Source: Ensifer adhaerens (GTDB lineage: Bacteria > Pseudomonadota > Alphaproteobacteria > Rhizobiales > Rhizobiaceae). Taken from it: a stretch of DNA of 64,000 nucleotides. The stretch lies in the NCBI RefSeq assembly GCF_002940685.1, contig NZ_PNFP01000011.1, positions 1-64,000 on the forward strand, in the 5' to 3' direction. Each line of letters begins with the position of its first letter. Position 1 is the stretch's first letter. Of the stretch, positions 24,252 through 46,900 are shown in pieces. The notes below the pieces were generated by a model that worked only from the letters and a program-made list of their open reading frames with translations, did not search any database and was not told the DNA's origin. A program made the translations under genes and the position numbers.

Positions 24252-24406
24252 CGCCGGAACATTGGGAGCTTCGGCCGTGGATAAAGGGAGCGTTGCGTGA
24301 GAGGCGAGTTGGCGTGGGGGCCGATGCCGGCGTTGGACGGCAAACATAATCGTCTCTGCCGGGCGAAGGTCCCGTCGGCGAGCGGCATGTTGGTGGGGGC
24401 GGCAAG

Positions 24407-25090: not shown

Positions 25091-25127
25091 TATTTCCGGA
25101 GTTTTCAGTCGAGCGAGGGAGCAAGCT

Positions 25128-26336: not shown

Positions 26337-26414
26337 GGCGGCTTTTTCGGAGGTGATTATGCAGCCGTGACGGGGTTGCCCGACCGCGCGGCGACCGATG
26401 CATGGGAGTTGAAT

Positions 26415-27005: not shown

Positions 27006-27008
27006 GCG

Positions 27009-28541: not shown

Positions 28542-29366
28542 CTACCCGCTTTCCCTTCCATCCGCTTCCTTTTCGCGCCCCTCCGGGCCGCAATCGCGCC
28601 CCCAGCCGATGAAGCCGGGATTGGCGAAATCGCAGTCGTTTGCCTGGCGTCGCTTTCCGTAGCGAAAAGGCTGCCCGTCGAGCGTCGTGACGCGGCCACC
28701 GGCCGCACGCAATACCGCATCGCCGGCGGCCGTATCCCATTCCATCGTGCGCCCGAAACGCGGATAGACATCGGCAAGGCCTTCGGCGAGCAGGCAGAAC
28801 TTCAGCGAGGAGCCAATCGACGTGCAGTCGCGGATCGCGTTCCTCGCAAGAAAGTCCGCCGTTTCCGCATCGCTGTGCGAACGGCTGGCGACCGCCGTCA
28901 GGCTCGCAGGTCGCGTCCGGCAGCGTATTTCCGTCGTTTCGATGACGGCAAAGTCGGCGGCCACCTGAAACTTCGCGGCCCGCCCCCCTTCGGCAACATA
29001 GCCCACTTGCCGGGCAGGTGCGAAGACGACGCCGGCCACCGGCTCGCCATCGCTGATCAGCGCGATGTTGACGGTGAAATCGCTGCGCCGGTTGATGAAT
29101 TCCTTGGTACCGTCGAGCGGATCGACGAGAAAGAAGCGTTGACCTTCGATTTCGGGCACGGCGCCGGCCGCGACGGACTCCTCGGCCACCACCGGAATAT
29201 CGGGGAAGCTTCGCGCCAGAATGGCAAGGATGATCTCTTCAGCACAGCGATCGGCTTCGGTGACTGGCGAACAATCGGCCTTTTCATCGACCGCGATGTC
29301 ACGCGCGTAGACGTCGAGAATAGCCTTGCCGGCCTCTATCGCTGCGGCCGTGAGCGTATCGATCAT
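28542..29366 (-). CDS. cysQ: 3'(2'),5'-bisphosphate nucleotidase
   Basis: An inositol-monophosphatase-fold protein of 274 residues with the metal-binding VVAEES, DPLDGTKEFINRR and EWDTAAGDAVL motifs. CysQ hydrolyses PAP (and PAPS), recycling the by-product of sulfotransferases. Its place as last gene after cysD and cysNC points to sulfate transfer rather than only cysteine synthesis. Confidence 0.92.
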   Translation of the reverse strand: MIDTLTAAAIEAGKAILDVYARDIAVDEKADCSPVTEADRCAEEIILAILARSFPDIPVVAEESVAAGAVPEIEGQRFFLVDPLDGTKEFINRRSDFTVNIALISDGEPVAGVVFAPARQVGYVAEGGRAAKFQVAADFAVIETTEIRCRTRPASLTAVASRSHSDAETADFLARNAIRDCTSIGSSLKFCLLAEGLADVYPRFGRTMEWDTAAGDAVLRAAGGRVTTLDGQPFRYGKRRQANDCDFANPGFIGWGRDCGPEGREKEADGRESG

Positions 29367-29420
29367 CGTCTCTCTCCGTAGTGCCGCTGGCGTCGTCGTC
29401 CTTGCTCGCCGAACTTGGCG

Positions 29421-31313
29421 TCATTGATTGTCCAGGTAGGCCTCGATCTCGCCCGCAAGCGTCGTGACCTCACGGCCGACGGTATGGAGGTGGATTTCGG
29501 GCGTCTCGGGGCGCTCGTAAGGCGAACTGATGCCGGTGAAATTGCGGATCTCGCCGGCAAGCGCCTTCTTGTAGAGACCCTTGGGATCGCGACGTGCGCA
29601 TTCCTCGATCGGTGTGTCGACGAAGATCTCGATGAATTCGCCGGGACCGAACAGCTCGCGGGCCATGCGGCGCTCCGAGCGGAAGGGCGAGATGAACGAC
29701 ACGAGCACGATCAGGCCCGCCTCGGTCATGAGCTTCGCGACCTCGGCCACGCGCCTGATGTTTTCGACCCGGTCTTCTTCGGTAAAGCCGAGATCCCGGT
29801 TGAGGCCATGCCGGACGTTGTCGCCATCGAGCAGGAACGTGTGTTTGCCCCGGGCGTGCAGCATTTTCTCCACGGTATTGGCAATCGTCGATTTCCCGGA
29901 GCCCGAGAAACCGGTGAACCACAGCACGCGTGGTGTCTGATGATTGAGCGCGGCTCGCGCCTTCTTGTTGATGTCGAGTGCCTGCCAATGAACGTTGAGC
30001 GCGCGACGCAGCGGAAAGTCGATCATGCCGGCGCCGACTGTCGCGTTGCTGAACCGATCGATCAGCACAAAGTTGCCGGTGATACGATTGTCCTTGTAGC
30101 TGTCGAAGACGATGGGCGCCTGGGTGGAAAGATTGCAGACGCCGATCTCGTTCATGCGCAGTGACTTTGCCGCTTCCTCGGCAAAGCTGTTGACGTCGAT
30201 CTGGTGTTTGAGGCTGGTGATCGTCGCGCTGACGCTGTCGACTTCCGTGCGCAGGATGTAGCTACGCCCTGGAAGCATCGGATCCGGGTGAAGCCAGATC
30301 ACGTGCGCCATGAACTGATCGGCGACATGCGGCCGGTCCTCTGGCGGTACGAGCATGTTGCCGCGCGAGATGTCGAGTTCGTCCTCAAGCACCAGCGTGA
30401 CCGACTGGCCCTCGACCGCGCGCGAAATATTGCCGTCGTAGGTGACGATTTCCTTGATCCTGGAAAGCTGGCCGGATTTCGCCACCGCGATCGGATCGCC
30501 GACAGCGACGCTGCCCGACGCCACCTGGCCGGCAAAGCCGCGGAAGTCGAGATTTGGGCGAAGGACAAGCTGGACCGGGAAGCGGAAGGCCGCTTCGGCA
30601 GCCTCTTCCTCGATCGGAACCGTCTCGAGATGCTCCAATAGCGTCGGTCCGCCGTACCAGGGCATGTTCGGCGAGCGGCTCGTCATGTTGTCGCCGAAGC
30701 GCGCCGAGATCGGTATCGGCGTGATCGTCGTGAAGCCGAGATTCTCGGCGAACTCTCTGTAGTCGGCCACGATCGTGTCGAAGACCCGGCGGTCAAAACC
30801 AACGAGATCGATCTTGTTGACGGCAAGAACGACATGGCGCACCCCAAGCAGAGACGCGATGAAGGAATGCCGCCGCGTCTGACGAAGAATGCCTTTGCGG
30901 CTGTCGACAAGCACGACCGCGAGAGCGGCCGTCGACGCCGCGGTGACCATGTTGCGGGTGTATTCCTCGTGCCCCGGCGCATCGGCCACGATGAACTTGC
31001 GGCGCGACGTGGCGAAGAAGCGATAGGCAACGTCGATGGTGATGCCCTGCTCCCTCTCGGCCTCCAGGCCGTCGATCAGAAGCGCAAAATCAATGTCGCC
31101 GTGGTTGGCGCTGTTTCGTTTGGTCTCGCGCTTGAGCGCTGCGAGCTGGTCGTCGAACAACAGCTTGCTGTCATAGAGCAGCCGGCCGATCAGTGTCGAC
31201 TTGCCGTCGTCGACCGAACCACAGGTCATGAACCGCAGAAGCGACTTCTTCTCCTGCTTGGCGAGATACTCGAGCACGCTGCCCGGTGTTGCGGGGATGC
31301 TGGCAGTCATCAA
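29421..31313 (-). CDS. cysNC: Bifunctional sulfate adenylyltransferase subunit 1 / APS kinase
   Basis: The 630-residue fusion begins with a CysN GTPase ([35 protein letters not shown]; about 1-440) and ends with an APS kinase ([34 protein letters not shown]; about 450-630). With CysD it makes APS and then PAPS. Fused NodQ-type enzymes commonly supply PAPS to sulfotransferases in rhizobia. It overlaps cysD by an ATGA, so the two are translationally coupled. Confidence 0.95.
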
Positions 31314-32209
31314 AAGTACCCCTCCCGCTTTTTCTTCTCCATCGATGCGGCCTCGTCCGCATCGATCAGGCGGCCGTGCCTTTCAGACGTGCGGGCGGTC
31401 AGCATTTCTCGGACGATGTCCTGGAGCGTCGTGGCTTTGGATTCGATCGCAGCGGTGAGCGGGTAGCAGCCAAGGGTGCGAAACCGCACCAGCCGCTGTT
31501 CGACCTTCTCGTCTTCGTGGAGCGGCATTCGCTCGTCATCCACCATGATCAGCATGCCGTTCCGTTCGACGACCGGGCGGCGTGCGGCGAAGTAGAGCGG
31601 CACGATCGGGATGTTTTCCTTGAGGATGTATTGCCAGATGTCGAGTTCCGTCCAGTTGGACAGGGGAAAGACGCGAATGGACTCGGATGGACCGACACGG
31701 GTGTTGTAGCTCTTCCACATTTCCGGCCGCTGGTTCTTCGGATCCCAGGCGTGCTGGACGTTGCGGAAGGAGAAGATGCGCTCCTTTGCCCTGCTCTTTT
31801 CCTCGTCCCGCCGCGCGCCTCCGAACGCGGCATCGAAGCCGTATTTGTCGAGCGCCTGGCGCAGGGCGATGGTCTTCATCACATGCGTGTGGACGTTGGA
31901 GCCATGGGTGAAGGGGTTGATTTTCTGCTCGACGCCGTCGCGGTTGATATGGACGAGCAGGTCGATGCCGAGTTCGGCGGCCGTGCGGTCGCGAAACTCA
32001 ATCATCTCGCGGAACTTCCAAGTGGTGTCGACATGGAGGAACGGGAAAGGCGGCTTGCCGGGATAAAACGCCTTCATCGCCAGATGCAGCATGACGGAGG
32101 AATCCTTGCCCACCGAATAGAGCATGACCGGCTTCGCAAAGGTTGCGGCGACCTCTCTGAATATGTGGATCGCCTCGGCTTCGAGGCGCTGTAAATGAGT
32201 TAAGGGCAT
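31310..32209 (-). CDS. cysD: Sulfate adenylyltransferase subunit 2
   Basis: The 299-residue PP-loop protein has [20 protein letters not shown] near residue 28 and the conserved [19 protein letters not shown]. CysD/NodP pairs with CysN to adenylate sulfate. It is the first gene of the three-gene sulfate-activation operon; an AT-rich gap of about 100 bp separates it from gtrA and probably carries its promoter. No assimilatory reductase genes are nearby. Confidence 0.95.
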
Positions 32210-32311: not shown

Positions 32312-32749
32312 TTAGGCGTTATTTCTTGTGGGCGTACTTGTCGCGCCTGAGCCGCGAAAGACCCAAAGTCGCGACGCCAGATAATTCCAGACAAAGACGA
32401 TCGGAACGCTGATCACCTTGGCGACCGGTGCCGGGATCAGGAGGGCAAGGCCCGCGACGATCGCCGTCGATATGAAGAGGCCCGTCAGGGTGGCGGCAAC
32501 GAACTTCACGGCCTGCACATGGCTGCGGGCGGCACGGAAGGTCCAGGCGCGATTGAGCATGTAGCTGACCGCGATGCCGCAGGAATAGGAAACGAGGTTG
32601 GACGGCGTTGGCGGCGCCCCTGCAAGATAGAACGTGTTGAACAACGCCATGTCGAGCAAGGTCGTCACGGCGCCAACGGCCGCAAACCGGGCAAGCGTTT
32701 CGCCGGCGCGTTGCCGGGGGCTAGCGTCTTTTGTTGTCGGCAGCGACAT
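32312..32749 (-). CDS. GtrA-family membrane protein
   Basis: At 145 residues with four hydrophobic helices, it matches GtrA: RFAAVGAVTTLLDMALFNTF at the start and VWNYLASRLWVF at the end. GtrA proteins are thought to flip undecaprenyl-phosphate-linked sugars made by GtrB. The ATG at 32749 lies inside the 3' end of the GT2 gene, so translation is coupled. This ends a seven-gene operon beginning with CDP-sugar genes. Confidence 0.88.
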   Translation of the reverse strand: MSLPTTKDASPRQRAGETLARFAAVGAVTTLLDMALFNTFYLAGAPPTPSNLVSYSCGIAVSYMLNRAWTFRAARSHVQAVKFVAATLTGLFISTAIVAGLALLIPAPVAKVISVPIVFVWNYLASRLWVFRGSGATSTPTRNNA

Positions 32750-33734
32750 CGCCGCGCCTCCAATCCGGCATCGCCGGCGTCGGGCGCCGGTGTTCGTCAT
32801 TGTTGATTGAAGCTTCGATGATCGGGGCCGGCCTGTGCTTCGACTGCATGAAGATGCGGCCGACATATTCGCCCATGATCCCGAGAAAGATCGCGTTCAG
32901 GGTGATGGAGAGCAACAGCAGCATCGTGGTCGTGGCAAAGCCGGCGGGCCAGTCCTGCCCGAACAGAAGCTTGCCGACGAGGTAGGCGAACAGAAGCAGG
33001 AGCGTGGCGGTGCCCATGACGAGGCTCGCCATCGAGGCGAGCCTGAGGGGTGTCAGCGAATGGTTGAGAATGCCGTCGACGGCAAGCGAGAGCATCGCTT
33101 TGAACGGGAACTTGCTTTCGCCGGCGACACGGGCCTGACGGTCATATTCGAAGCCGACCTGGGAAAACCCCATGGCGCTGATGAGGCCACGCAGATAGGG
33201 AGACGTGTCGTCGACCTTGCGCAGTTCGTCGAGGATGCACCTGTCGACGAGCCTGAATTCGCCGGCGTTGAGCGGCAGATCGTCCTCGCTGAGCGCGTTG
33301 ATGCACCAGTAGAAGGCGCGACGGATGTGCGTCGTCAGCCATCCGTCGGTGAGCGTCCGGCGAATGCCGTAGACCACCTGGTGCCCCTTCAGCCAGAGAT
33401 CGATCATGCCGGGTATGAGGTGCGGCGGATCCTGCAGGTCGCAGTCGATCTGCACCGAGCAATCTCCGGTCGCCGCCTTGTAGGCCACGAGCAGCGAGCG
33501 CTGATAGCCGATGTTGCGGCTGAAGCGGATCACCCGAACGCTCGGATCCTCGCTCGCGATCTCCGTCAGGATCTCGAAGGTTCTGTCGGTGGAGTGGTTG
33601 TCCGTGAAGATGATTTCGCGGTCGTATTCGGGCAAGCTGCCGAACATGTCGACGATCGCCTCGTGGGCGCGCCGGACATTGGCCTCTTCGTTGTAGGCCG
33701 GAACCAGGATCGAGATTTTCTGCCTCTTTTTCAT
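32721..33734 (-). CDS. GtrB/DPM1-like polyprenyl-phosphate glycosyltransferase
   Basis: The 337-residue protein has an N-terminal GT2 domain (ISILVPAYNEEANVRRAHEA, TDNHSTDRTFEIL, QIDCDLQDPP, the DxD-type metal site) and two C-terminal membrane helices at about 235-300. This is the GtrB/ArnC/DPM1 architecture, which moves a sugar from a nucleotide to undecaprenyl phosphate. Position downstream of rfbF-rfbG-dehydratase genes suggests the donor is the CDP-sugar made by the same operon; classical GtrB uses UDP-glucose, so this is inference. Confidence 0.9.
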   Translation of the reverse strand: MKKRQKISILVPAYNEEANVRRAHEAIVDMFGSLPEYDREIIFTDNHSTDRTFEILTEIASEDPSVRVIRFSRNIGYQRSLLVAYKAATGDCSVQIDCDLQDPPHLIPGMIDLWLKGHQVVYGIRRTLTDGWLTTHIRRAFYWCINALSEDDLPLNAGEFRLVDRCILDELRKVDDTSPYLRGLISAMGFSQVGFEYDRQARVAGESKFPFKAMLSLAVDGILNHSLTPLRLASMASLVMGTATLLLLFAYLVGKLLFGQDWPAGFATTTMLLLLSITLNAIFLGIMGEYVGRIFMQSKHRPAPIIEASINNDEHRRPTPAMPDWRRGDVAADNKRR

Positions 33735-33753
33735 CTCGTCGTCACCACCATCT

Positions 33754-34734
33754 TCACGCCGTTTCTCGCGACAAACGGCCGTCGTTCGAACCGGGCAGCG
33801 CGGGCGCCTGCCGGTGCCACTCGACCGTACGGGTTATTCCTTCGCGCAAGGGGATGCGCGCACTCCAACCGAAGAGGTCCTTGGCGCGCGCCGTAGATGC
33901 GCGCAACTCGCGCGCACCCGCGGACATTCCTCCCAGACGATATTCGATGAGATCAGGGTTGGCGCCCGTCCGCTCGACGATGAGTTCGGCGACCTCCCGC
34001 ATAGTTGGTGCGACGCCGCTTGCGACATTGACGAGCCGCGTGCTGACCGGGGCGTCGGCGATGCGAAGCAGCGCGTCGACAACGTCGCTCACATGAAGCA
34101 GGTCGCGACGATCACCGGGATGGTGGACGATGCAGGGCTGACCGGCAAGGCAACGTTCGATGAACAGCGGGATCATGAATTCGGTCGACTGCGTTGGACC
34201 GTAGACCAGAGCCAGTCGGGCGGTGATCACGGGGAAGGGCAAGCGCCTCTGCAATCCGCCGATGAGGTGGGTTGCAGCCGCGAGTTCGGCACCATAGGCG
34301 GTGACGGGCATTTCCCGGCTATCTTCCTCATAGGGTCTAGGCGCGGTGCCGTATTCGGCAATCGATCCGGATCTGATGATTTTCAGGGGCGGATGGCGAA
34401 CGCTGCTCGCGGCGCCGAGAAGGTTCAACAAAGCGGTGAGGTGTTCCTTGATGCCTGCCTTGGCGTCGCCCAACTCCGCTTCCTCGCGTCTTCTCGGGCG
34501 CGCGGCGAGATGGAAGACGAATTCCGGTGAGACCTCCGACAGGCAACGCTTCATGGCGTCTTCCGACTGGAGGTCGAAGTTGTGCCGTTTAATTGACTGA
34601 TCGAACGCATCGAGCCGGCTGTCGTCGGAGCCGGGCCGAACCACGACGTGGATTTCGTGGCCGACATCAAGGCAGGCCCGCGTCACATGCGAACCAATGA
34701 AGCCAGCCGCGCCGGTAATCAGAACCCTCGACAT
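33754..34734 (-). CDS. NAD(P)-dependent epimerase/reductase, extended SDR, active site altered
   Basis: A 326-residue extended SDR with nucleotide motif LITGAAGFIGSHV and SGSIAEYG. The catalytic YxxxK site reads YGAEL, so the lysine is replaced by leucine while the tyrosine remains. The family normally reduces or epimerises nucleotide-4-keto sugars, and the operon suggests a last step on a CDP-4-keto-deoxyhexose. With the Lys missing it may bind without catalysis or work by another route. It sits 19 bp ahead of the GT2 gene. Confidence 0.82.
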   Translation of the reverse strand: MSRVLITGAAGFIGSHVTRACLDVGHEIHVVVRPGSDDSRLDAFDQSIKRHNFDLQSEDAMKRCLSEVSPEFVFHLAARPRRREEAELGDAKAGIKEHLTALLNLLGAASSVRHPPLKIIRSGSIAEYGTAPRPYEEDSREMPVTAYGAELAAATHLIGGLQRRLPFPVITARLALVYGPTQSTEFMIPLFIERCLAGQPCIVHHPGDRRDLLHVSDVVDALLRIADAPVSTRLVNVASGVAPTMREVAELIVERTGANPDLIEYRLGGMSAGARELRASTARAKDLFGWSARIPLREGITRTVEWHRQAPALPGSNDGRLSRETA

Positions 34735-34782
34735 TGCCTATTCCCACTTGAGCCGGACAGCCGGACCGAAGCCCCAACCAAG

Positions 34783-34812
34783 TGCGTTTCCACCGCGACG
34801 GGTGGAAACGCA
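34783..34812. terminator. Intercistronic hairpin inside the CDP-sugar operon
   Basis: TGCGTTTCCACC (34783-34794) pairs perfectly with GGTGGAAACGCA (34801-34812) around a six-base loop, in the 93-bp gap between the C-methyltransferase and SDR genes. No T run follows on the minus strand, so it may attenuate or be an mRNA processing/stability hairpin. Confidence 0.5.
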
Positions 34813-34827
34813 TCACCCCCGTCGTGT

Positions 34828-36057
34828 TCAGTTGACCATGGTGGGGTAGGGCAACGGTACGAGGAAGCGGCCGCCTTGCGCGGCGAAGTCCGTCTGCTGC
34901 GCGCGGATCTCATCGAAGAAATTCCACGCCAGCACCAGGAGCACGCCGGGCGCATCCTTCCTCAACACGTCCGGGGAGCGGATCGGTATCTTCATGCCCG
35001 GCGAATACAGGCCCTGCTTCAGGGCGTTCCGGTCAACCAGGTAATCGAGCCTGTCCGGGCCGATCCCAAAGTAGTTGAGGAGGGTGTTGCCCTTGGCCGG
35101 CGCCCCATAGCCCGCGACGGTGACGCCGTCTTTCTTGAGCTGGTCCAGCATGGCGATCAGATCGACGCCGATCTTCCGGATGCGCTCGGCAAAGGCAAGA
35201 TAGGTATCCGCCTCGAGCATCCCTGCATCCAGCTCCTCCGCAAGCATCTCGCTGACGATCGCCGTCGGGGGCGTCGCCGTTGCGGCGTGCTTGAGGAAAA
35301 CTCGCATCGAACCTCCATGCACGCCGAGACGATGAACATCGACGACGTCGAGGTCGAAGTATCCGCCGAGCTTGACGAGCGAGAGCAGGCTGAACTCGGA
35401 TACATGCTCGTGATAGATCGTGTCGAACTCGTTGTTTTCGAGAAGATTCTTCGCCCAGGGCACTTCGATGACGAAGACGCCATCATCGGCCAACCAGTCC
35501 TTGATGCCGGCCATGAAGTCATGAAGATCGCCGATGTGGTTGAACGTGTTCGTCGTAACGATCGCCTTTGCCGGACCGTACTCGCTGACCAGCCGAGCCG
35601 AGCCGCTGTGGGTGAAGTAGCCGACGTCCACGTTCACCCCGCGCGAGCGGGCGATCTCGGCCAGGTTTGCCGCAGGATCGACGCCGAGCGTCTTGCCGCC
35701 GACCTTGTTGCACGCCGAAAGCAGAAGGCCGTCATTGCAGCCGATGTCGACGATCAGTCCGCCGCCGGCGACCTTCTTCAAGACGCCGGCCAGCCCTGCA
35801 AAATGGTCGTGCATGGATGTGGCGCTCGATGGGACGTAGAGATAGTGCTCGAAGAAGCCGTCGGGAACCTGGTCGGAAACCTGGATCAATCCGCAGGTCA
35901 GGCAGGCCTGCGAGTCCAGCGGATACATGGGCTGGTCCTCGGGCACATCTTCCGGACGCACGAAGCTGTTTGCCGGCGGGTGATCGCCCATGCATAGAAA
36001 CGTCAGCGGGTCGGCTGCAAGGCAAGCGCGGCATCTCGTAAGGCGTGTCATCTTCAA
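34828..36057 (-). CDS. Sugar C-methyltransferase (TylC3-like)
   Basis: At 409 residues it has all three parts of the family: an N-terminal zinc domain with CRAC and CLTCGL, a SAM-binding domain (GLIVDIGCNDGLLLSA) with EHVSEFSLLSL, and the C-terminal C-methyltransferase domain (VAGYGAPAKGNTLLNYFGIG). Such enzymes add a methyl to C3 (sometimes C5) of nucleotide 4-keto-deoxysugars, giving branched sugars. Its ATG overlaps the stop of the PLP-enzyme gene upstream, tying it to the CDP-sugar pathway. Confidence 0.9.
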   Translation of the reverse strand: MKMTRLTRCRACLAADPLTFLCMGDHPPANSFVRPEDVPEDQPMYPLDSQACLTCGLIQVSDQVPDGFFEHYLYVPSSATSMHDHFAGLAGVLKKVAGGGLIVDIGCNDGLLLSACNKVGGKTLGVDPAANLAEIARSRGVNVDVGYFTHSGSARLVSEYGPAKAIVTTNTFNHIGDLHDFMAGIKDWLADDGVFVIEVPWAKNLLENNEFDTIYHEHVSEFSLLSLVKLGGYFDLDVVDVHRLGVHGGSMRVFLKHAATATPPTAIVSEMLAEELDAGMLEADTYLAFAERIRKIGVDLIAMLDQLKKDGVTVAGYGAPAKGNTLLNYFGIGPDRLDYLVDRNALKQGLYSPGMKIPIRSPDVLRKDAPGVLLVLAWNFFDEIRAQQTDFAAQGGRFLVPLPYPTMVN

Positions 36058-37304
36058 GCTCCAGGTTGTTCGAAGGAAGCTGCTTTCGGCTGGCGGCGCT
36101 TGCTAGCGCCGGAGCTCGTGAACCGCGCGGCGAAATCGCGGAACGACTGATGGATATGGTCGAGATGCGCCTGTGTCAGGCCGTGGTGGCAGGCGAGCAG
36201 GATACCGCCACGCATCACGTCGTCCGCAACCGGATAGCCGCGTGGCTCGACCTTGCTATGAACGCCGCTCATCGCCGGCTGGCGCAGGATGTTTCCGGTA
36301 AACACCGGACGGGTCTGGATATCGCGCTGTTCCAGGAAGATCTGCATCTCCCGCCGGGTGAACGGCGCATCGGCACGCACGGTCATCGGGAAGGCCAGCC
36401 ACCCGGTTCGCGAAAGCGGCAGTTGCTCCGGCAAGACGAACCAGTCCTCGTAGGTCTCGAAGAAGGCGCGCTGCTTGGCGAAGTTGCGCTCGCGCGCGTC
36501 GATGTTCTGCTGCAGCCGATCGAGCTGGACAAGCCCGAATGCTGCGCCCATTTCGGATGGTTCGATGTTGAAACCCAGCACTTCGAACACGAACTTGGCG
36601 TCGTAATCGAAGCCGTCGAGATCGATGTTGAAACGGTTCTCGATGGTCTCCGACTCGACAAAGAGCGAGGATGTACGGCCCCAGGAGCGATAGAGTATCG
36701 CCTTGCGGGCGAGTTCATCGTCGTTGACGCAGACCATGCCGCCATTGCCCGCCGCGGTGATGACATGCGAGCCGTAGAAGCTGGTCGTGCTGATATCGGA
36801 CCGCGCGCCGGTGCTGGTGTCCCTGATCGTCGCGCCCAGTGTGTCGGCGCTGTCTTCGATCACCAGCAGCTTGTGGGCGTCGGCGATGGCACGGATGCGG
36901 TCCCAATCGGGCAGGTTGCCGATCAGCGACGGGATCATCACCGCCTTCGTCTTCTTGGTAATCATCCGCTCGATCGCGTCGGCGTCGATGTTGTAGGTTC
37001 CCTCGACGACGTCGACGAAGGCCGGGACAAGACCGGCGCGCACGATCGGGGCGACGGTCGTTGCAAAGGTCAATGCGGGCGTGATGACCTCGGATCCCTT
37101 CGCAAGGTTGGCGATTTCGATGGCGAGATGGTTCGCGGACGAACCGGAGTTCACCATGATGCCATGCCGTTTCGCAAAGAGGGTCGCGACACGTTCCTGC
37201 ATCGTCCTGACGGCCTTGCCCATCTGCGTCGATGAGCGCAGGACTGCCACAACGGCATCAATCTCTTCCTGACCGTAAACGGACTGTCCGTAATTAACTC
37301 GCAT
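36054..37304 (-). CDS. RfbH/ColD-like PLP-dependent sugar 3-dehydratase
   Basis: The 416-residue DegT-fold enzyme has GSSANHLAI and, where aminotransferases have the PLP lysine, histidine: SFYGSHVITAAGNGG. His here marks the E1 (RfbH) and ColD dehydratases that remove the 3-hydroxyl from 4-keto-6-deoxy sugars. After YRSWGR the Cys-rich [2Fe-2S] segment of RfbH is absent; only two cysteines occur in the protein. It therefore looks mechanistically ColD-like yet is encoded between CDP-glucose enzymes. It overlaps rfbG by 11 bp. Confidence 0.85.
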   Translation of the reverse strand: MRVNYGQSVYGQEEIDAVVAVLRSSTQMGKAVRTMQERVATLFAKRHGIMVNSGSSANHLAIEIANLAKGSEVITPALTFATTVAPIVRAGLVPAFVDVVEGTYNIDADAIERMITKKTKAVMIPSLIGNLPDWDRIRAIADAHKLLVIEDSADTLGATIRDTSTGARSDISTTSFYGSHVITAAGNGGMVCVNDDELARKAILYRSWGRTSSLFVESETIENRFNIDLDGFDYDAKFVFEVLGFNIEPSEMGAAFGLVQLDRLQQNIDARERNFAKQRAFFETYEDWFVLPEQLPLSRTGWLAFPMTVRADAPFTRREMQIFLEQRDIQTRPVFTGNILRQPAMSGVHSKVEPRGYPVADDVMRGGILLACHHGLTQAHLDHIHQSFRDFAARFTSSGASKRRQPKAASFEQPGA

Positions 37305-38451
37305 CTTTCCAATCTCCGATGTCGCGCAATGGCAATGGTCTTGCTTCGTGTTCGACTTCCTGTTTCCAGGCGGCGGCGTATTGCTCGATCTGATGCTCCG
37401 AGAACGAGCGGATGTTCCCAGGGTCGTCCCGGTACTTCCGGTACCAGGCGACGGTCATGGCCACGGTGTCGCGCAGGCGCAGCACCGGCTTCCAGCCGAG
37501 CTCCGTGCGCGCCTTGGTGCTGTCGAGGCGCAGGATGGTCGACTCCACCGGCGCATTCGCCTGCGGCTCGACGATGTATTTTGGCGCTGCTTCACCCCAC
37601 TGGGCGACGACCATGTCCGCAAGCGTTCCGACATTCACGGTCGCTTCCTGGTCGGGACCGAAGTTCCAGCCGCCGGCAAAGCGCGTTCTGCCGTGAAGCA
37701 GGTGCGCCGCCAGCATCATGTAGCCGCGAAGCGGCTCGAAGACGTGCTGCCACGGCCGGATGCTCGACGGATTGCGCAGCCGTGCGGGGTTGCCGCCTTC
37801 CACCGACCGGACCAGATCGGGCACGAGCCTGTCGGCACCCCAGTCGCCGCCGCCGATGACGTTGCCGGCGCGCACGCTGACGAGCTGTGGCCCATTCGGG
37901 TCATTGAAGAACGAGGATCGATAGGCCGCGGCGACCAGTTCGGCACAGCCTTTCGACGAGCTGTAGGGGTCGCGTCCGCCCATCGGGTCGTTTTCCCGAT
38001 AGCCCCAGACCCATTCGCGGTTCTCGTAGCACTTGTCGCTCGTGACGACGATGACGCCCTTCAAGGACTTCATGCGCCTCGCCGCGTCGAGTACGATGGC
38101 GGTGCCGACGACATTGGTCGCATAGGTGTCGACAGGGCTCTCGAACGAAGCGCGCACCACCGCTTGGGCTGCCATGTGGATGACGAGATCGAAATCCTGG
38201 CCGTCGGTCACCCGCGCCACGTCGGCGGCGGACCGAATGTCGCCTTCATGGCCGTTGACGACCTCGCCGAGGCCGGTCGCCGTGAAGAAGGACGGCTTGG
38301 ACGGTGGCAGCGAAAGGCCGATCACCGACGCACCCAGCCGCCTCAGCCATAGCGAGAGCCAGCCTCCCTTGAAGCCGGTGTGTCCCGTGACCAGTATCTT
38401 GCGGCCACGGAACGCATCGGAAAGGTCCGCCTCGCTGGTGATCACAGCCAT
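37294..38451 (-). CDS. rfbG: CDP-glucose 4,6-dehydratase
   Basis: The 385-residue extended SDR has ILVTGHTGFKGGWLSLWLRR (the GHTGFKG variant is characteristic of RfbG), HMAAQAVVRASFESP, VTSDKCYENREWVWG and active site DPYSSSKGCAELV. It converts CDP-glucose to CDP-4-keto-6-deoxyglucose. The gene lies 3 bp after rfbF and overlaps the dehydratase gene, so the pathway order matches the gene order. Confidence 0.94.
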   Translation of the reverse strand: MAVITSEADLSDAFRGRKILVTGHTGFKGGWLSLWLRRLGASVIGLSLPPSKPSFFTATGLGEVVNGHEGDIRSAADVARVTDGQDFDLVIHMAAQAVVRASFESPVDTYATNVVGTAIVLDAARRMKSLKGVIVVTSDKCYENREWVWGYRENDPMGGRDPYSSSKGCAELVAAAYRSSFFNDPNGPQLVSVRAGNVIGGGDWGADRLVPDLVRSVEGGNPARLRNPSSIRPWQHVFEPLRGYMMLAAHLLHGRTRFAGGWNFGPDQEATVNVGTLADMVVAQWGEAAPKYIVEPQANAPVESTILRLDSTKARTELGWKPVLRLRDTVAMTVAWYRKYRDDPGNIRSFSEHQIEQYAAAWKQEVEHEARPLPLRDIGDWKDAS

Positions 38452-38454
38452 GTC

Positions 38455-39279
38455 CTACATCCGTACGTGATGGGTGGAAGGTGCTGCTGTCGCGGCGGAG
38501 AGGTGATCGCGGTCAAAATGCAGCCACGGCGGATCGTCGCTTTCGCACAGGCCGTTCAGGTAATCCCGATCGCGGATCGTATCCATCGGATGCCAGAAGC
38601 CGTGATGCTTGTAGGCAAACAGCTGACCGTCTCTCGCGAGGTTGGTCAGCGGCGACATCTCGAGAGGCTCGGAAAGGCTCGGGATGTAATCGAGGACGCC
38701 GGGTTCAAAGACGAAGAAACCGCCGTTGATCCAGGTTTCCTTCTTCTGCACCTTCTCGGTGAACTCGACGACCTGGTCACCTTCAATTTCAAGGTTACCG
38801 AAGCGGGCCGGCGGCTGCACCGCGGTCACCGTCGCAAGGCGGCCGTGCGAGCGGTGGAAGGCGAGCAACGCCGCGATGTCGATGTTTCCGACGCCGTCCG
38901 AATAGGTGACCATGAAGGTCTCGTTGTCGAGCCATTCGCGCAGGCGCAGAAGCCGCCCGCCGGTCATCGTCGAGAGGCCGGTGTCGACCACCGAGACATT
39001 CCAATCGAGCGGATGGTTGGGATGCAGCACCATCGAGCCGCTTCCAAGTGCCACGGTAAAGTCTGCGGTCGAGAGGTGGAAATTATGGAAGAAGCTCTTG
39101 ATCGACATGCATTTGTAACCGCCGGCGACCACGAAGTCGCGGTGGCCCCAGTGGCTGTAGATGTCCATGACGTGAAGAATGATGGGCTTGCCACCAACCT
39201 CGACCATCGGCTTGGGTATACGCGTGGTTTCCTCGGCAAGGCGCGAGCCAAGCCCTCCCGCAAAGAGAACGACTTTCAT
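38455..39279 (-). CDS. rfbF: Glucose-1-phosphate cytidylyltransferase
   Basis: The 274-residue nucleotidyltransferase begins VVLFAGGLGSRLAEETTRIP and has KPMVEVGGKPIILHVM and VTYSDGVGNID, the RfbF pattern rather than RmlA. It makes CDP-glucose and commits glucose-1-phosphate to the CDP-deoxysugar branch. I start at ATG 39279 after TTGGAGACC; a TTG at 39291 is possible. First gene of the operon, divergent from a GT-C transferase gene. Confidence 0.94.
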   Translation of the reverse strand: MKVVLFAGGLGSRLAEETTRIPKPMVEVGGKPIILHVMDIYSHWGHRDFVVAGGYKCMSIKSFFHNFHLSTADFTVALGSGSMVLHPNHPLDWNVSVVDTGLSTMTGGRLLRLREWLDNETFMVTYSDGVGNIDIAALLAFHRSHGRLATVTAVQPPARFGNLEIEGDQVVEFTEKVQKKETWINGGFFVFEPGVLDYIPSLSEPLEMSPLTNLARDGQLFAYKHHGFWHPMDTIRDRDYLNGLCESDDPPWLHFDRDHLSAATAAPSTHHVRM

Positions 39280-39683
39280 AGCGGTCTCCAAGAAGATATG
39301 TTTGGGATACTGTTGACGTCTCAGGTTTTATTCATGAGCAATCGCGATCCAATGCGCGATTTGGGCGTTTTCAATAACTGATTAAAATGCACGTCAATAA
39401 ATGCAGGTGATTACCTGCGCGCAACGGAATATGTCTGGATAAGTCCCAGGGTTTCCGTTATGTTAATTAACTAATATACAAGGAATACCTTATATTCTGC
39501 TTGGCCGCAAGCCTTTTTACATGTCAGGTTTATCCCCGCGCGCTTGTCGGGATTATCCCGTTACGCCATGCGCCGGGGCGCATTACAATCCCTTTGCGAT
39601 CCATTTGAAGCCGTGTGCGACCGCATCGTTTCCCGTTGCCCGAGCGTGTTTTTACTTCGTCTATTTTTGTTCGGAGTTTTCGT
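39280..39683. promoter_or_regulatory. Divergent promoter region, rfbF operon and GT-C gene
   Basis: About 400 bp without a convincing gene. The 39330-39510 part is strongly AT-rich and probably holds promoters for both the rfbFGH operon and the GT-C gene. Shared control would suit their proposed joint role. Confidence 0.45.
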
Positions 39684-41321
39684 ATGGCCTATCCAGAAAG
39701 TGTTTCGTCGGAGAGACATGAATCCGTCCAAGGAAAATCATCGGGAATTTTCTATCAGATTGCAGCTGCCCTGTTCTCCCTGTTCTTTTTTTATTTCCTG
39801 TTTCTGAGAATTATGAATTTTGATATGCGGCGAGACGAGCAGCTGTATGTCCCGCCGATCAGGTTGCTGAACGATCAGGCGCTCTATGGCGACTTCTTCT
39901 ACAATCATCCGCCGGCCTCCGCCTGGTACTTCTACGGCATCGGCAAGCTGACAGGATCGAGCGACCTGCTTTTGAGCGGCCGCCTCGGCATTTTCCTGGC
40001 CTGGATCCTTTTCGCGGTCGCGGTTGGCGGCGTGGTTTACGCGTTGACGCGTTCGGGTTGGGCAACCCTCTGCGTCGCCATCCTGTCGCTGGTAAACGAG
40101 TTGTTCCTGACCCAGACTGGTGTCAGCGCCACCAACAATTTCCTGCCATGGCCGTTCGCCTTTCTCGGCCTCAGTCTTTTCCTTTTCTCCTTGCGCAGCG
40201 AGCAGCAGCGTTCGTTGCAGGTGGCGCTGGCCGGGTTCCTGCTGGCGCTTGCCGTGTGCTTCAAGTTGAGCGCGGTCGCCTTCATCCCGGCCGTGGCCGT
40301 TGCCGCATTCCTCTTGCCGCGATCGCTGGCGCTGAAGGATCGCATCGTTCAGGTCGCGGGGCCGCTCCTGGTCGGTGGCCTTGTCGGTGGCGCGCCGATC
40401 CTCTTCTACCTCTTCAGGGATCCGCAGCTCTTCCTTGCCCACGTGGTGCGCTACCATACCGGTCCGCACCCGCAATTTTGGCGGCTGATGAGTGGCGACG
40501 GGGAGGGTGGCGCGATGTCGCTCGCCCAGAAAGTGGTGCTTGCGCAGGAAATATGGCTCGCGCCGGCCGTTGCCGTGGCGCTCGCGGCCCTGCTTGCGAC
40601 CGCGCTCACCCTGCTAACCCGGCGCGCCGACAATACGGAAGCCGCGCCCCGGATGCGAATGGAAGAGCTCCTGGTTCTTGCAGGCGTGTTGCTCTGCAGC
40701 TTCGCCTTGAGCTTCGTGCCGACGCCTGGGTTCCCGCAATATTTTGCGCCGCCGCTCGTCTGCCTTCCGCTGGCTTTCGGCCTGTTGCTTGAGGCGCTAG
40801 GACCGCGCGCGCTTCCGATGATGCGGCCGATCCTTCTGTCGGCAACGCTTGTGGTGCTCGCGATCAACGCGCCGCGTCTTGGTCAATACCTCGGCAAAGC
40901 GACCCACCCGCAACAATGGACGGCGATGCGCGTGCATGCGGAGGGGGTGGCGATCGCGGAGAGAATGCGGGCTGCTGGCGTCAGCGGCAAGGTGGCGACG
41001 CTTGCGCCCATCTATCCGCTGGAAGGCGGTCTCGATGTCTACGCCGAGCTGGCGACGGGGCCATTTGTCTACCGCACCGCCGACATGACCAGCCCTGAAT
41101 TGGCGAAATACTACAAGATGACATCGCCATCGACGATCGAGGCGCTGTTTGAGAAAGACCCGCCGGCGGCATTCCTGCTTGGCTTCGAAGAGGAGCTGGA
41201 AAAGCCGATGCGCGCTTATGCGGAGAGCCACGGTTACGTGCAGTCCGCGTCTCTCGGCTTCAGGGACAGATACGGGGTCCCCATCCTCTACCTGAAATCC
41301 GCAACACCTTCTGGATCCTGA
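39684..41321 (+). CDS. GT-C membrane glycosyltransferase (ArnT/PMT-like)
   Basis: At 545 residues with about 10-12 helices, it carries the GT-C acidic motif MRRDEQLYVP in the first periplasmic loop, right after helix 1, and then NHPPASAWYFYGIGKL, as in ArnT/GT39 proteins. Such enzymes use polyprenyl-phosphate sugars on the periplasmic face. It is divergent from the CDP-sugar/GtrB/GtrA operon and is the natural candidate to use that operon's product. A second palindromic repeat follows its stop. Confidence 0.85.
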   Translation: MAYPESVSSERHESVQGKSSGIFYQIAAALFSLFFFYFLFLRIMNFDMRRDEQLYVPPIRLLNDQALYGDFFYNHPPASAWYFYGIGKLTGSSDLLLSGRLGIFLAWILFAVAVGGVVYALTRSGWATLCVAILSLVNELFLTQTGVSATNNFLPWPFAFLGLSLFLFSLRSEQQRSLQVALAGFLLALAVCFKLSAVAFIPAVAVAAFLLPRSLALKDRIVQVAGPLLVGGLVGGAPILFYLFRDPQLFLAHVVRYHTGPHPQFWRLMSGDGEGGAMSLAQKVVLAQEIWLAPAVAVALAALLATALTLLTRRADNTEAAPRMRMEELLVLAGVLLCSFALSFVPTPGFPQYFAPPLVCLPLAFGLLLEALGPRALPMMRPILLSATLVVLAINAPRLGQYLGKATHPQQWTAMRVHAEGVAIAERMRAAGVSGKVATLAPIYPLEGGLDVYAELATGPFVYRTADMTSPELAKYYKMTSPSTIEALFEKDPPAAFLLGFEEELEKPMRAYAESHGYVQSASLGFRDRYGVPILYLKSATPSGS

Positions 41322-41458: not shown

Positions 41459-42571
41459 TCAGGTCGATAGGCGTGCCGCCGGGTAAAGGACCCCCGAATC
41501 CTCAGGCGTCGCGATGACGTCGTCCCATTGCTGGAGCACGGACTGGATCGCGTAGCGCGCGGCAACCGCGCGCGCACCCGCGGCGCCGATCTGCTGCTGG
41601 AGCACTGTATCGCCGGCCAGGCGCCCGATGGCATCTGCGAGCTGGCGGACGTTCTCCCTCGGTATGAGCACGCCGACCGCGGGCGTATCGATGATTTCCG
41701 AGGGACCCCAGGGACAATCGAATGCGATACTGGCCAGGCCCGCAGACATCGCCTCCAGCAGCACGTTCGGAAAACCTTCGAAGCGGGAGCTGAGGACGAA
41801 GATATCGCCGGCATCGACCCATTCGACGGGTGATTTCGTCGTGCCGGGAAGGCGGACGCGGTCTGAGAGGCCGAGATGCCGGACCTGTTCCTCCAGGGCA
41901 CGGCGCTCGGGACCTTCGCCGAAGATGGTCAGCGTCATGCTAGGAGTGTGCCTGGCAATATCGGCAAAGGCGTTGATCAGCAGATCGAAGCCTTTCTGCC
42001 TGTCGAGGCGACCCACGGCAACCACTCGGCTGCCCGCGCCGGTCGCCCGATCGCGCACATGCTGAAGGGTGATCGGATTGGGAATGATCACGGCTCTGGC
42101 CTGCAGGGCTGGCGGCAACGAATTGGCGGCCTCCGTCGTCTGCATCACCAGCCGCTCTGCCAGGCGCGCCGCCAGCGGCCGGGCCAGCCGCCAAATCGGG
42201 CTCATGTCTTGCGTGTTGAAGTTGTTTCGCTCGGAAAGCACGAGCCGCATGCCGAGACCCCGGCTGGCAAGGACGACCATGATGTTGACCTTCGTCAGAA
42301 AGGAAATGACGAGGTCCGGCGACAGGGCACGCAGCCGTCCACGCAGCCGGGCGATACGTGCGGCCGTCCGGAAAACAGGGGCCGACGGGCCACCGCCGAG
42401 CGCTTCCACGCCGACGGACCTGTCGTAGGCAAAGTAGCTTTCCGGGGTTTCTGCACTGAGCGCAAGCACGTGAACGTCGTCGCCGCAGGTCGAGCGATGG
42501 CGCGCGAGGATGTTGACGATCTTTTCCGCGCCGCCGGCACCAAGCCCCGAAAGCACAAACACAATTCGCAA
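41459..42571 (-). CDS. Glycosyltransferase, GT4 family
   Basis: A 370-residue GT-B protein whose N-lobe begins RIVFVLSGLGAGGAEKIVNI. The C-lobe has VVAVGRLDRQKGFDLLINAF and SSRFEGFPNVLLEAMSAGLA with the donor-binding E-x7-E. The start is TTG at 42571 after GAGGAG. It lies 63 bp downstream of the response-regulator gene. Donor and linkage are unknown. Confidence 0.86.
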   Translation of the reverse strand: MRIVFVLSGLGAGGAEKIVNILARHRSTCGDDVHVLALSAETPESYFAYDRSVGVEALGGGPSAPVFRTAARIARLRGRLRALSPDLVISFLTKVNIMVVLASRGLGMRLVLSERNNFNTQDMSPIWRLARPLAARLAERLVMQTTEAANSLPPALQARAVIIPNPITLQHVRDRATGAGSRVVAVGRLDRQKGFDLLINAFADIARHTPSMTLTIFGEGPERRALEEQVRHLGLSDRVRLPGTTKSPVEWVDAGDIFVLSSRFEGFPNVLLEAMSAGLASIAFDCPWGPSEIIDTPAVGVLIPRENVRQLADAIGRLAGDTVLQQQIGAAGARAVAARYAIQSVLQQWDDVIATPEDSGVLYPAARLST

Positions 42572-42634
42572 TGGCGGCTCCTCTTGAAGGGGCAGGTGCA
42601 AAATCTCGCCTGCGCTCGACGGTCCGACCCTCGT

Positions 42635-43418: not shown

Positions 43419-44504
43419 CTAGAAATTCCTCAAGTAGCTGGAATATCGCCTCTCGATCTTGTGCAGCGTGTACTCGTTTTCGATACGATCGCGGGCGAGG
43501 TGCGCGTAGCGGGCATACTCCTCCGGCGAAAGGTCGAGCGCCTTGCGCATGGCGTCGGCAAAGGCCTCGGGATTGCGGGCCGGCACGACGATGCCGGCCT
43601 TGCCGGCGACCTCTGCCGCGTCGCCCACATCGGTTGCCACCACCATCTTTGCATAGCTCATCGCCTCGGCAAGGACGTTCGGAAACCCCTCGGTCCTGGA
43701 GGACAGGGCGAGAATGTCGATGTTGCGGTAGAACTCCTCCATGTCCGCGACCTCGCCCCTGAGGTCGATGGCCTCGCTCGGCAATCCGGCATCGGCGATC
43801 AGCCGGACGACCTCCGGATTGTCCCAGGCCAAGCCTCGGCCAGCGGCCAAAAAGCGGGTTTCGGGATGCGTGCGCAGCACCGAGGCGGCAGCGCGAAAGA
43901 AAGTGGCGTGATCCTTCTGCGGATGGAAGCGCGCGACGATGCCGATCCGTCGGGGTGGAGCCTCGTGGCCGGCGGCAACCGTCGGAATTTCGAAGCCGTT
44001 CGGGATGACGACCGAATTCAGGTTGCGGTAGCCATAGGCGCGGTGCATCTCCCGGGCGCGCGACGAGTTGTAGATGATGCCAGAGGCGGAACCGGAGAGC
44101 ACCCGGGCAGCGGCGATCGCCAGATGCGAGCTTCGCGACAGCGAGGCAACATCGTCCAGCGACTGTCGAACATTCCAGATGACCGGCGTCGCGCGGCGCG
44201 CGAGCTTTGCTGCGACCGTTCCGACGACCATCGCATGGTACATCCAGCATAACATGACGCTCGGCTTTTCCCGGCGAATGATACTGGCAAGGCGCATCGT
44301 GCCCTGGAGAATGGCCGGGAGCGAGTGCGCGCCAAGCGCCACATACTCGACACGCGGATTGTCCGCGAGGTCACGATTTCGCGCCGAGACATCGCGCAGC
44401 GAGACGACCATGACGCGTTCGTCAGATGAAGCCTTGAGCAGGCGCGCGAGCATCGTCTCAGCTCCGGCGCTTGCGCTGAAATTGGTGATCAAATGCAATA
44501 TCAT
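43419..44504 (-). CDS. Glycosyltransferase, GT4 family
   Basis: The 361-residue GT-B enzyme starts MILHLITNFSASAGAETMLA, with IGIVARFHPQKDHATFFRAA and SSRTEGFPNVLAEAMSYAKM in the C-lobe. I start at ATG 44504; the open frame continues to 44606 without a good ribosome site. A gap of 124 bp separates it from the response-regulator gene downstream. Acceptor and donor unknown. Confidence 0.86.
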   Translation of the reverse strand: MILHLITNFSASAGAETMLARLLKASSDERVMVVSLRDVSARNRDLADNPRVEYVALGAHSLPAILQGTMRLASIIRREKPSVMLCWMYHAMVVGTVAAKLARRATPVIWNVRQSLDDVASLSRSSHLAIAAARVLSGSASGIIYNSSRAREMHRAYGYRNLNSVVIPNGFEIPTVAAGHEAPPRRIGIVARFHPQKDHATFFRAAASVLRTHPETRFLAAGRGLAWDNPEVVRLIADAGLPSEAIDLRGEVADMEEFYRNIDILALSSRTEGFPNVLAEAMSYAKMVVATDVGDAAEVAGKAGIVVPARNPEAFADAMRKALDLSPEEYARYAHLARDRIENEYTLHKIERRYSSYLRNF

Positions 44505-44931
44505 ACCGTGGATCCGAAGTTGCGCCGCGGTTTGGGCATTCCTCCGCATTCCCTGATCACGGCGACAGGTCACACGCGTGTGTATCCCTGCGCCTGTCAC
44601 AAGCATTAAATTCCTGGGCGTGCATTGCGCGCCAGGACATCAACTTCCTATTGCCCCGATTTTGGAGGACACATCGGACGCGATGATTTCTGAAATAGTT
44701 TCGTACTCTAAATTGGTCGTCCAGGGCGAACCCTAGAAAGGCAGTGGTTTCAAGATACAACGGCAGACACTGTCATGCAATTATTCTCTTGCAGTATAGT
44801 CCGTCTCTGAAATAGCATCCTGTCATATCATACTTGAAATACATTAATATCGCCCGGATGGGTTATTTCTTCCCTTGGTTGTGGTCGAGTTGTATATTGC
44901 GCTCTGACACATTGTGCATTTGAGAACCAAA
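44505..44931. promoter_or_regulatory. Divergent AT-rich region, GT4 and formyltransferase promoters
   Basis: About 430 bp without a supported gene. The 44690-44910 segment is AT-rich and lies upstream of two divergent genes. I expect promoters in it but cannot fix their boxes. Confidence 0.4.
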
Positions 44932-45837
44932 ATGCGTTTTGCTCTGGTTGGTGCCGTCGAAGGATCCCGAATAGCGCTCGATGCCCTTTTGTCGAAGGGG
45001 ATGCTGCCGTCGCTGGTCGTCACGCTGCCGCCTGATGCCGCGGATCGTCATTCGGACTTCGCGGACTTGACGACGCCGGCGCGTGCGGTGGGCATCACGG
45101 TCTGCCATACGACCAACGTGAACGCTGAAGATACGCTTGCAGCCGTTCGCGCCAGCGCGCCGGATCTCATTCTGGTCCTCGGCTGGTCGCAGATCTGCCG
45201 CCAGTCGTTTCGGGCCATCCCGCGGCTGGGCGTGATCGGCTTTCACCCGTCGGCACTGCCGCGCCTGCGGGGCAGAGGGGTCATCCCCTGGACCATTCTG
45301 CTCGACGAAAAGACAACCGGCTCGTCGCTGTTCTGGATCGACGAGGGAACGGATTCCGGCCCCATCATCCTGCAGCGTCTGTTCCCCGTCGCCCCGGACG
45401 AAACGGCACGCAGCCTCTACGGCAAACATGTGCGCAATCTTGCGGAAATGGTGCCCGAGGCTGTCGAACTGGCGGCTGCGGGGAAGGCGCCGAGGATCGA
45501 GCAGGATCACAGCCTGGCCAGCTATTGCGCAAAACGCATCGCCGAGGATGGCCTGATCGATTGGCAGCGCCCGGCGGCAGAGGTCCTGCGACTGATCAGG
45601 GCGGTCGGTGAGCCCTATCCGGGCGCCTTCTCGCGGCAGAACGGAAACGTCGTGCATATCGATCAGGCGCGGAGCTTCGCCGAATCTTCTCGCTACATTG
45701 GTCTGCCGGCACAGATCCAGACACATACGCCTGACGGTTTTACCGTCATGTGCGGCGACGGGCAGTGCATTGAAGTGATCGCCTGGCGCACGGCGGTTGA
45801 GCGGCGCCCCTCCATCCACAGCCGGTTGGGGGCATAA
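44932..45837 (+). CDS. Sugar N-formyltransferase-like protein
   Basis: A 301-residue formyltransferase-fold protein with LILVLGWSQICRQSF, GVIGFHPSALPRLRGRG and the Asp motif IDEGTDSGPI. Relatives formylate 4-amino sugars with 10-formyl-THF, and the C-terminal third matches the Fmt_C/ArnA-type extension. The usual N-x-H catalytic pair reads G-x-H here, the Asn being Gly, which also occurs in some divergent members. With an aminotransferase and a PglF-like dehydratase in the region, a formamido sugar is plausible; Fmt itself is unlikely in this context. Confidence 0.8.
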   Translation: MRFALVGAVEGSRIALDALLSKGMLPSLVVTLPPDAADRHSDFADLTTPARAVGITVCHTTNVNAEDTLAAVRASAPDLILVLGWSQICRQSFRAIPRLGVIGFHPSALPRLRGRGVIPWTILLDEKTTGSSLFWIDEGTDSGPIILQRLFPVAPDETARSLYGKHVRNLAEMVPEAVELAAAGKAPRIEQDHSLASYCAKRIAEDGLIDWQRPAAEVLRLIRAVGEPYPGAFSRQNGNVVHIDQARSFAESSRYIGLPAQIQTHTPDGFTVMCGDGQCIEVIAWRTAVERRPSIHSRLGA

Positions 45838-45924
45838 AGACGGGGCAGGTCGATATTTGCCGGGTTCGGTCAGACGAGATCAGGGACAGGCCGGTTCCCT
45901 CGTCACATCAAGGAGAAGGCGTGT

Positions 45925-46896: not shown

Positions 46897-46900
46897 ACGG

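Follow-up and report, generated by a model that had tools for sequence, protein, structure and literature searches.

Eight genes in a stretch of DNA from Ensifer adhaerens probably form a self-contained, three-component glycosylation module that would draw on a cytidine diphosphate (CDP) sugar as its donor. The stretch, referred to below as the window, is 64,000 nucleotides long (contig NZ_PNFP01000011.1, positions 1 to 64,000). The prediction that its GtrB-like glycosyltransferase takes a CDP-sugar is well supported by comparative evidence.

In the proposed mechanism, RfbF and RfbG would convert glucose-1-phosphate to CDP-4-keto-6-deoxyglucose, as expected from their family membership. An RfbH-like enzyme that uses pyridoxal phosphate (PLP) and lacks an iron-sulfur (Fe-S) cluster would then take off the 3-hydroxyl, as ColD does. 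Next, a C-methyltransferase would attach a methyl group, most likely at C3 and possibly at C5, and a short-chain dehydrogenase/reductase (SDR) would complete the sugar. GtrB would move the sugar from CDP to polyprenyl phosphate, with Asn46 reading cytosine where enzymes of the uridine diphosphate (UDP) type carry Asp. GtrA would flip the lipid-linked sugar. Finally, a glycosyltransferase (GT) of the GT-C type would attach it in the periplasm, where it most likely becomes a side group of the neighbouring Wzx/Wzy-type polysaccharide.

A sequence-only reading had already proposed that a CDP-sugar is loaded on undecaprenyl phosphate, flipped and added in the periplasm. This appears to be the best reading, because RfbF and RfbG are linked to this type of GtrB across phyla, control enzymes differ in this respect, Asn replaces Asp at the base contact, and there are loci in which GtrB is the sole candidate nearby.

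The gene cluster

The genome is Ensifer adhaerens-like and 7.5 Mb in size. All eight genes lie where the sequence-only reading had put them. Seven tightly packed genes run on the minus strand from about 39279 to 32312, and the GT-C gene is divergent:

38455 to 39279, minus strand: RfbF-like glucose-1-phosphate cytidylyltransferase, which makes CDP-glucose (TIGR02623, 331.8 bits, above the curated cut-off of 300.25; open reading frame listed to 39291)
37294 to 38451, minus strand: RfbG-like CDP-glucose 4,6-dehydratase (TIGR02622, 436.3 bits, above the curated cut-off of 278.45)
36054 to 37304, minus strand: RfbH/E1-like PLP enzyme, predicted ColD-like 3-dehydratase (PDB relative E1 3bcx and motif comparison)
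34828 to 36057, minus strand: sugar C-methyltransferase, TylC3/TcaB9 family (PF08421, PF13489 and PF08484; PDB 4rv9)
33754 to 34734, minus strand: extended SDR, presumed to carry out the last CDP-sugar step as 4-ketoreductase or epimerase (PF01370)
32721 to 33734, minus strand: predicted GtrB-like polyprenyl-phosphate glycosyltransferase with Asn46 in the motif TDNHS (PF00535; PDB relative GtrB 5ekp)
32312 to 32749, minus strand: GtrA-like membrane protein, putative flippase (PF04138, E 5.5e-25)
39684 to 41321, plus strand: GT-C glycosyltransferase (PF13231, PMT_2; open reading frame listed from 39615)

The likely starts of three genes are shifted slightly relative to the listed open reading frames (GtrA to about 32749, RfbF to about 39279, GT-C to about 39684). 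With the GtrA start at 32749, the intergenic gaps in operon order (RfbF, RfbG, RfbH-like, C-methyltransferase, SDR, GtrB, GtrA) are 3, -11, -4, 93, 19 and -29 bp.

Linkage of GtrB to CDP-glucose genes

Related loci were collected with the window GtrB as the only query against genome contigs, a search that reaches close relatives only. The best 80 of 85 loci were analysed and split into 54 closer and 26 more distant ones. RfbF lies within 10 kb of GtrB in 72 of the 80 and RfbG in 70, and these loci come from many phyla. Where RfbF was missed, four stretches are 4.2-13.9 kb long (L027, L034, L060 and L080, the last of which carries RfbG) and four are 17-21 kb long (L049, L066, L072 and L082).

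The closer loci carry most of the window genes: the SDR in all 54, RfbF in 51, a GT-C homologue in 51, the RfbH-like gene in 50, RfbG in 48, GtrA in 42 (by profile) and the C-methyltransferase in 40. For RfbF, the SDR and GT-C, chance falls far short of explaining such company. Among the 26 distant loci, RfbF is found in 21, RfbG in 22, the C-methyltransferase in 8, GtrA in 3 and the RfbH-like gene in 1; the close SDR and the window type of GT-C were found in none at the thresholds applied. A gene of 400-1100 residues with at least six predicted helices, as counted by a crude hydropathy scan, is present in 23 of the 26. The titles of the distant records name Acidobacteria, Gemmatimonadetes, Thermoleophilia, Planctomycetota, Nitrospirae, Omnitrophota, Myxococcales, Paenibacillus and Bradyrhizobium, among others.

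As a control, GtrB-like genes were sought in 114 genomes sampled evenly from the same class. There were 60 matches besides the window, and RfbF was sought in the same 114 genomes. For the six top-scoring matches (202-327 bits), the distance to RfbF is 36 to 6,563 bp. None of the other 54 lies within 8 kb of RfbF, and three lie at 9.2-9.9 kb. For RfbF within 8 kb, 6/6 against 0/54 gives a Fisher value of 2e-8, with kinship ignored and the score cut set afterwards; likewise, the distances were already known when the limits of 8 and 10 kb and the line at 200 bits were picked. RfbF linkage is nearly absent in the other GtrB-like enzymes of the class.

The genome of the window strain provides a further comparison. 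A second RfbF-RfbG-C-methyltransferase cluster on contig 14 (L205) has no GtrB within the 19.5 kb read. The only other full-length GtrB-like match (L206, C81), which has the motif DDGS, precedes a gene of 508 residues with ten predicted helices and has no RfbF within the 18.4 kb read. Thus, CDP-sugar genes and GtrB genes do not generally imply each other.

The base-reading residue

In Synechocystis GtrB, Asp43 (Asp39 in Pyrococcus DPMS) is described as hydrogen-bonding to N3 of UDP (PMC5526996). The equivalent Asp of SpsA coordinates uracil N3, and a change of the equivalent Asp in MG517 left less than 2% activity (PMC3849446). In models of a mannose synthase the equivalent Asp touches N1 of guanine, and the Ala variant was nearly inactive and misfolded (PMC13224292).

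The alignment places Asp43 of Synechocystis GtrB in one column with Asn46 of the window protein, which therefore lacks the Asp that contacts uracil N3 in UDP-type GtrB. The N3 atom bears a hydrogen in uracil and none in cytosine. A switch to cytosine would thus be expected to replace Asp by Asn.

The identity of this residue was compared with gene context in two samples. In the class sample, 8 of 60 genes have Asn at position 46, and RfbF is found within 10 kb of 7 of these 8; none was seen for L097 (motif VENGS, gene 154-1233), which lies at a contig edge. For the Asp genes of the same sample, the count is 0/52 within 8 kb and 2/52 within 10 kb. The second sample covered the phylum and was examined after the Asn rule had been formed. 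Here 61 of 97 additional matches were analysed, from 56 loci taken by rank and four picks, with one locus holding two genes; one pick, G121:C20, was selected because RfbF lies 9.3 kb away. RfbF is near 7 of the 14 Asn genes and 1 of the 47 Asp genes.

For the pooled comparison and the tree, duplicates were dropped, since L085 and L086 are the same sequence, at which the 80-locus set overlaps the class sample. RfbF lies within 10 kb of 86 of 100 genes with the pair Asp-Asn (window included) and of 5 of 102 Asp genes, three of which (L083, L085 and L087) are second copies beside an Asp-Asn gene in the locus. The groups also differ elsewhere, for instance at positions 77 (Tyr/Phe against Lys/His) and 47 (His against Gly); at position 46 the separation is complete by construction, since that position defines the groups. 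A chance neighbourhood of GtrB and RfbF is ruled out by the class control and by the Asn/Asp counts of both samples.

Synthesis of the sugar

The sequence-only reading had named the third gene a dehydratase. Its relationship to RfbH and E1 holds (317.6 bits to RfbH; best PDB relative E1 3bcx, E 4.7e-62), and the PLP lysine is replaced by His in the motif SFYGSH, as in RfbH and E1. The score falls below the RfbH cut-off of 423, however, and the [2Fe-2S] cysteine segment of E1 is missing in the window protein and in all 44 close relatives that were aligned. L090, L091 and L122 have RfbH proteins that do show the Fe-S cysteines. No gene of the window strain's genome exceeds the RfbH cut-off, and there is no E3 reductase partner among the operon genes, to which the search for one was confined. 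The enzyme probably acts as ColD does, needing no electron-transfer partner.

The C-methyltransferase has the three-part architecture of TylC3 and TcaB9 (PF08421, PF13489, PF08484). Its best PDB relative is the D-mycarose 3-C-methyltransferase 4rv9 (E 5.9e-88), and it is also related to TcaB9. In the window strain the sugar is therefore probably C-methylated, possibly a 3,6-dideoxy-3-C-methylhexose. A simple abequose or paratose pathway was rejected for this strain because the methyltransferase is present. Of the 54 closer loci, 14 lack the gene; 13 of these lie on adequate contigs and the other, L027, on a contig of 4.7 kb. The 13 relatives indicate a sugar that varies around a constant GtrB and GT-C.

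Branched CDP-sugars are suggested by other loci. In L122, a thiamine diphosphate (TPP) enzyme lies between the CDP genes and GtrB, and transketolase-domain genes are present in L090 and L091.

The membrane components

The window GtrB is of the GT2 type, with C-terminal membrane helices and a DXD motif, as in three-component systems. A sequence search of the PDB relates it to GtrB 5ekp (E 4.7e-49), while its best NCBIfam match is PgfS, at 212.3 bits and under the cut-off of 500. The closest named relative among the matches is in Ensifer adhaerens L18 (locus L006), at 98% identity. An AlphaFold2 model (pLDDT 86.7, pTM 0.79) has the Synechocystis GtrB 9nyc as its top PDB fold match (TM 0.76/0.80). 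Residues D97, D99, R125 and R202 are invariant across 32 aligned members.

The two other components are also in place: a GtrA-family membrane protein (PF04138) adjoins GtrB, and a GT-C-fold transferase is linked to it. The GT-C model (pLDDT 89.3, pTM 0.88) matches ArnT 5f15 best (TM 0.58/0.60), with DPY19, AftA and Pmt4 among the next matches. Asp74 and Glu75 are kept in 33 of 33 aligned members and directly follow the first predicted helix, where the catalytic acidic residue of GT-C enzymes is located. The place of the gene varies: it lies upstream in Ensifer and Kaistia (divergent) and in Rhodobacterales (co-directional), and downstream in sphingomonads (convergent).

Alternative readings

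Several observations, given in this section, weigh against the proposed module. Some concern the proteins themselves. At residue 159 of the window GtrB, where GtrB has its proposed catalytic Asp157, all 54 closer members have Glu and all 26 distant ones Asp. In WbbE, another GT2 enzyme, altering the Asp equivalent to the base-contact residue had little effect (PMC3849446). In 12 of the 54 closer loci, no GtrA was picked up with the profile. The SDR keeps the Tyr of the YxxxK motif, and the Lys is missing in 56 of 56 aligned rows (Leu in 34, Met in 17, others in 5), which take in the window and the copy of its own assembly.

Others concern the history of the residue. On a tree of 206 sequences, all 100 Asp-Asn proteins fall in one clade, the basal support of which is weak (0.251). 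The correlation with RfbF thus reflects one origin long kept, with no repeated convergence, and Fisher values overstate independence. Repeated evolution of Asn46 was sought on the tree and none was found: besides the clade of 100 there are two GtrB-like singletons with Glu-Asn (VENGS), L097 and L158 (12726), which stand apart and near which no RfbF was seen. As a predictor of RfbF, Asn46 alone is only half true for the phylum sample, where 7 of the 14 genes of the Asn type have no RfbF nearby.

It might be that Asn46 is a mark of ancestry only, and that the lineage accepts sugars on either CDP or UDP, or uses another nucleotide. The single origin fits this model, as do the 14 of 100 Asp-Asn genes without RfbF within 10 kb, four of which lie on stretches of 4.2-13.9 kb. 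However, the position is described as a base contact in related enzymes (PMC5526996, PMC3849446, PMC13224292), and positions 77 and 47 are among others that differ sharply. The model is rather unlikely.

Asp-Asn GtrB genes with no RfbF nearby occur in L151, L153, L154, L147, L160 and L181. The gene of L151 adjoins a NeuB-family gene and a TPP enzyme, which makes other cytidylated sugars conceivable.

Another model starts from the other glycosyltransferases of the locus. GtrB would use UDP-glucose, and the CDP-sugar would go to a cytoplasmic Leloir enzyme of family GT4, the two sharing only a polysaccharide locus. Two cytoplasmic GT4 genes flank the window module (41459-42601 and 43419-44606). 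Furthermore, a GT4-like gene follows GtrB on the same strand within 3 kb in 17 of the 54 closer loci, mostly Rhodobacterales by title, and the GtrB-type enzymes described in the available literature use UDP-sugars. Two individual loci bear on both models. In favour of the module, the acidobacterial L064 has RfbF, RfbG, SDR, methyltransferase and GtrB, then a YfhO gene, a family counted as GT-C in multi-component systems of Gram-positive bacteria (PMC8035078), and in the thermoleophilian L074 a PMT_2 gene is followed by RfbF-RfbG-SDR-methyltransferase-GtrB. Against it, L064 has a large gene upstream of RfbF (492-4334) that combines GT2 and GT4 domains, and L074 has a GT4 gene two positions past GtrB. 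These additional GT genes are possible users of the CDP-sugar there.

The sphingomonad loci L030, L056 and L062 speak against a UDP-glucose donor. In 45 of 50 called genes, with 25 of 41 Pfam families listed, there are three GT2 matches, which equals the number of GtrB genes. Gene by gene, the sole further match of GT2 or GT4 type belongs to L056, a glycogen-synthase-like gene with an alpha-amylase-family gene next to it. Some neighbours have no family match, so that an unrecognised transferase is possible there. In addition, Asp-type GtrB is rarely near RfbF (2/52 within 10 kb; 1/47), the base-reading Asp is replaced by Asn, and linkage to RfbF persists across phyla though other neighbours vary. 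Use of UDP-glucose by GtrB is therefore improbable.

With a CDP donor as the preferred reading, the Asp-Asn signature would define, with somewhat better than even confidence, a pan-phylum family of CDP-sugar:polyprenyl-phosphate glycosyltransferases that feeds diverse CDP-sugars to periplasmic glycosylation. These may include 6-deoxy, 3,6-dideoxy, C-methyl and (in the thiamine-diphosphate clusters) branched sugars, and members away from RfbF may take other cytidylated sugars.

The acceptor

The likeliest acceptor is the Wzx/Wzy-type polysaccharide encoded next door, to which the sugar would be added as a side group. The adjoining genes match families of such systems, with an export protein, a phosphoglycosyltransferase and a Wzy_C protein. 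The sphingomonad loci also carry Wzy_C and Poly_export genes, together with sulfotransferase, DegT and beta-barrel genes.

Alternatively, GtrB may charge the lipid with a CDP-sugar and GT-C may act on lipid A-core, a secreted RTX protein or a glycolipid. The GT-C fold is nearest to the lipid A transferase ArnT, with DPY19 and Pmt4 also matching, and RTX, ABC and HlyD-family genes lie near the module, RTX-like repeats being found in 10/80 loci. The acceptor cannot be told from a fold match, however, and the Wzy_C, flippase-type and export genes nearby, like Wzy_C and Poly_export in the sphingomonad loci, favour a polysaccharide. A different acceptor is unlikely.

The RTX-repeat gene of the window stands beside ABC and HlyD-family export genes (47681-52225). 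The 10 related loci with RTX-like repeats are L009, L010, L011, L013, L014, L015, L029, L030, L033 and L062, compared with 2 of 119 other loci, the stretch sizes being unmatched.

Relation to known systems

The system is best seen as a variation on the Gtr three-component type, with a predicted CDP donor chemistry. Like the Gtr systems of Shigella and Salmonella and Synechocystis GtrB, it has a GT2 enzyme with C-terminal helices, a GtrA-family protein and a GT-C enzyme. It differs in being encoded with a CDP-deoxysugar pathway, in having Asn for Asp43, and in a donor that would be a CDP-sugar where theirs is UDP-glucose. ArnC and ArnT share both folds, ArnC being among the GtrB matches and ArnT the best GT-C match; their donor is UDP-L-Ara4FN, and ArnC retains the Asp.

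The CDP-3,6-dideoxyhexose pathway of Salmonella and Yersinia consists of RfbFGHI and WbaV, with direct transfer of the sugar. It shares RfbF, RfbG and a relative of RfbH with the window, where the RfbH relative lacks the Fe-S cysteines, a C-methyltransferase is added and transfer would be lipid-linked. The substrate of ColD, a PLP 3-dehydratase, is a guanosine diphosphate (GDP) sugar. Like the window protein (E ~5e-45), ColD has His for Lys and no E1-type cysteine segment; the window protein stands in a CDP pathway context and is closer to E1 in sequence.

In the pentofuranose system of Citrobacter youngae O1/O2, a GT-C enzyme likewise adds a side-chain sugar in the periplasm, drawing on a polyprenyl-phosphate donor. 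This system differs in that the lipid donor is made from phosphoribosyl pyrophosphate (PRPP) by a protein unlike GtrB (PMC11127046). The three-component systems described in two articles (PMC11127046, PMC8035078) use UDP-hexoses or PRPP-derived pentoses, and the term CDP does not occur in the main text of either. The sequence-only reading knew of no described system of this type, and none turned up in the open-licence literature, where no CDP-sugar polyprenyl-phosphate transferase was recognised in the parts available; most subscription papers lie outside it.

If the predictions are correct, lipid-phosphate-linked periplasmic glycosylation would gain a further donor class, and rare CDP-deoxysugars would have a route into envelope polymers without a dedicated cytoplasmic transferase. 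A one-residue donor rule (Asp for uracil, Asn for cytosine) would then apply to many unannotated GtrB-like enzymes. The module also hints at a possible Fe-S-free path to CDP-3,6-dideoxysugars.

Neighbouring genes

Two groups of genes form the context of the module:

17216 to 28343: Wzx/Wzy-type genes (GNVR protein, Polysacc_synt, Poly_export, PIG-L, DegT, Bac_transf, Wzy_C)
28542 to 32209, minus strand: CysD, CysN-CysC and an Inositol_P-family gene (sulfate activation, not part of the core)

From its company and position, the Inositol_P-family gene would be CysQ-like. Sulfate activation genes thus stand beside the window module, and sulfotransferase genes are found in L030, L056 and L062. Together they suggest a sulfated polymer. 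On the other side of the module, formyltransferase, ATP-grasp and HAD-family genes lie in a row (44914-47599).

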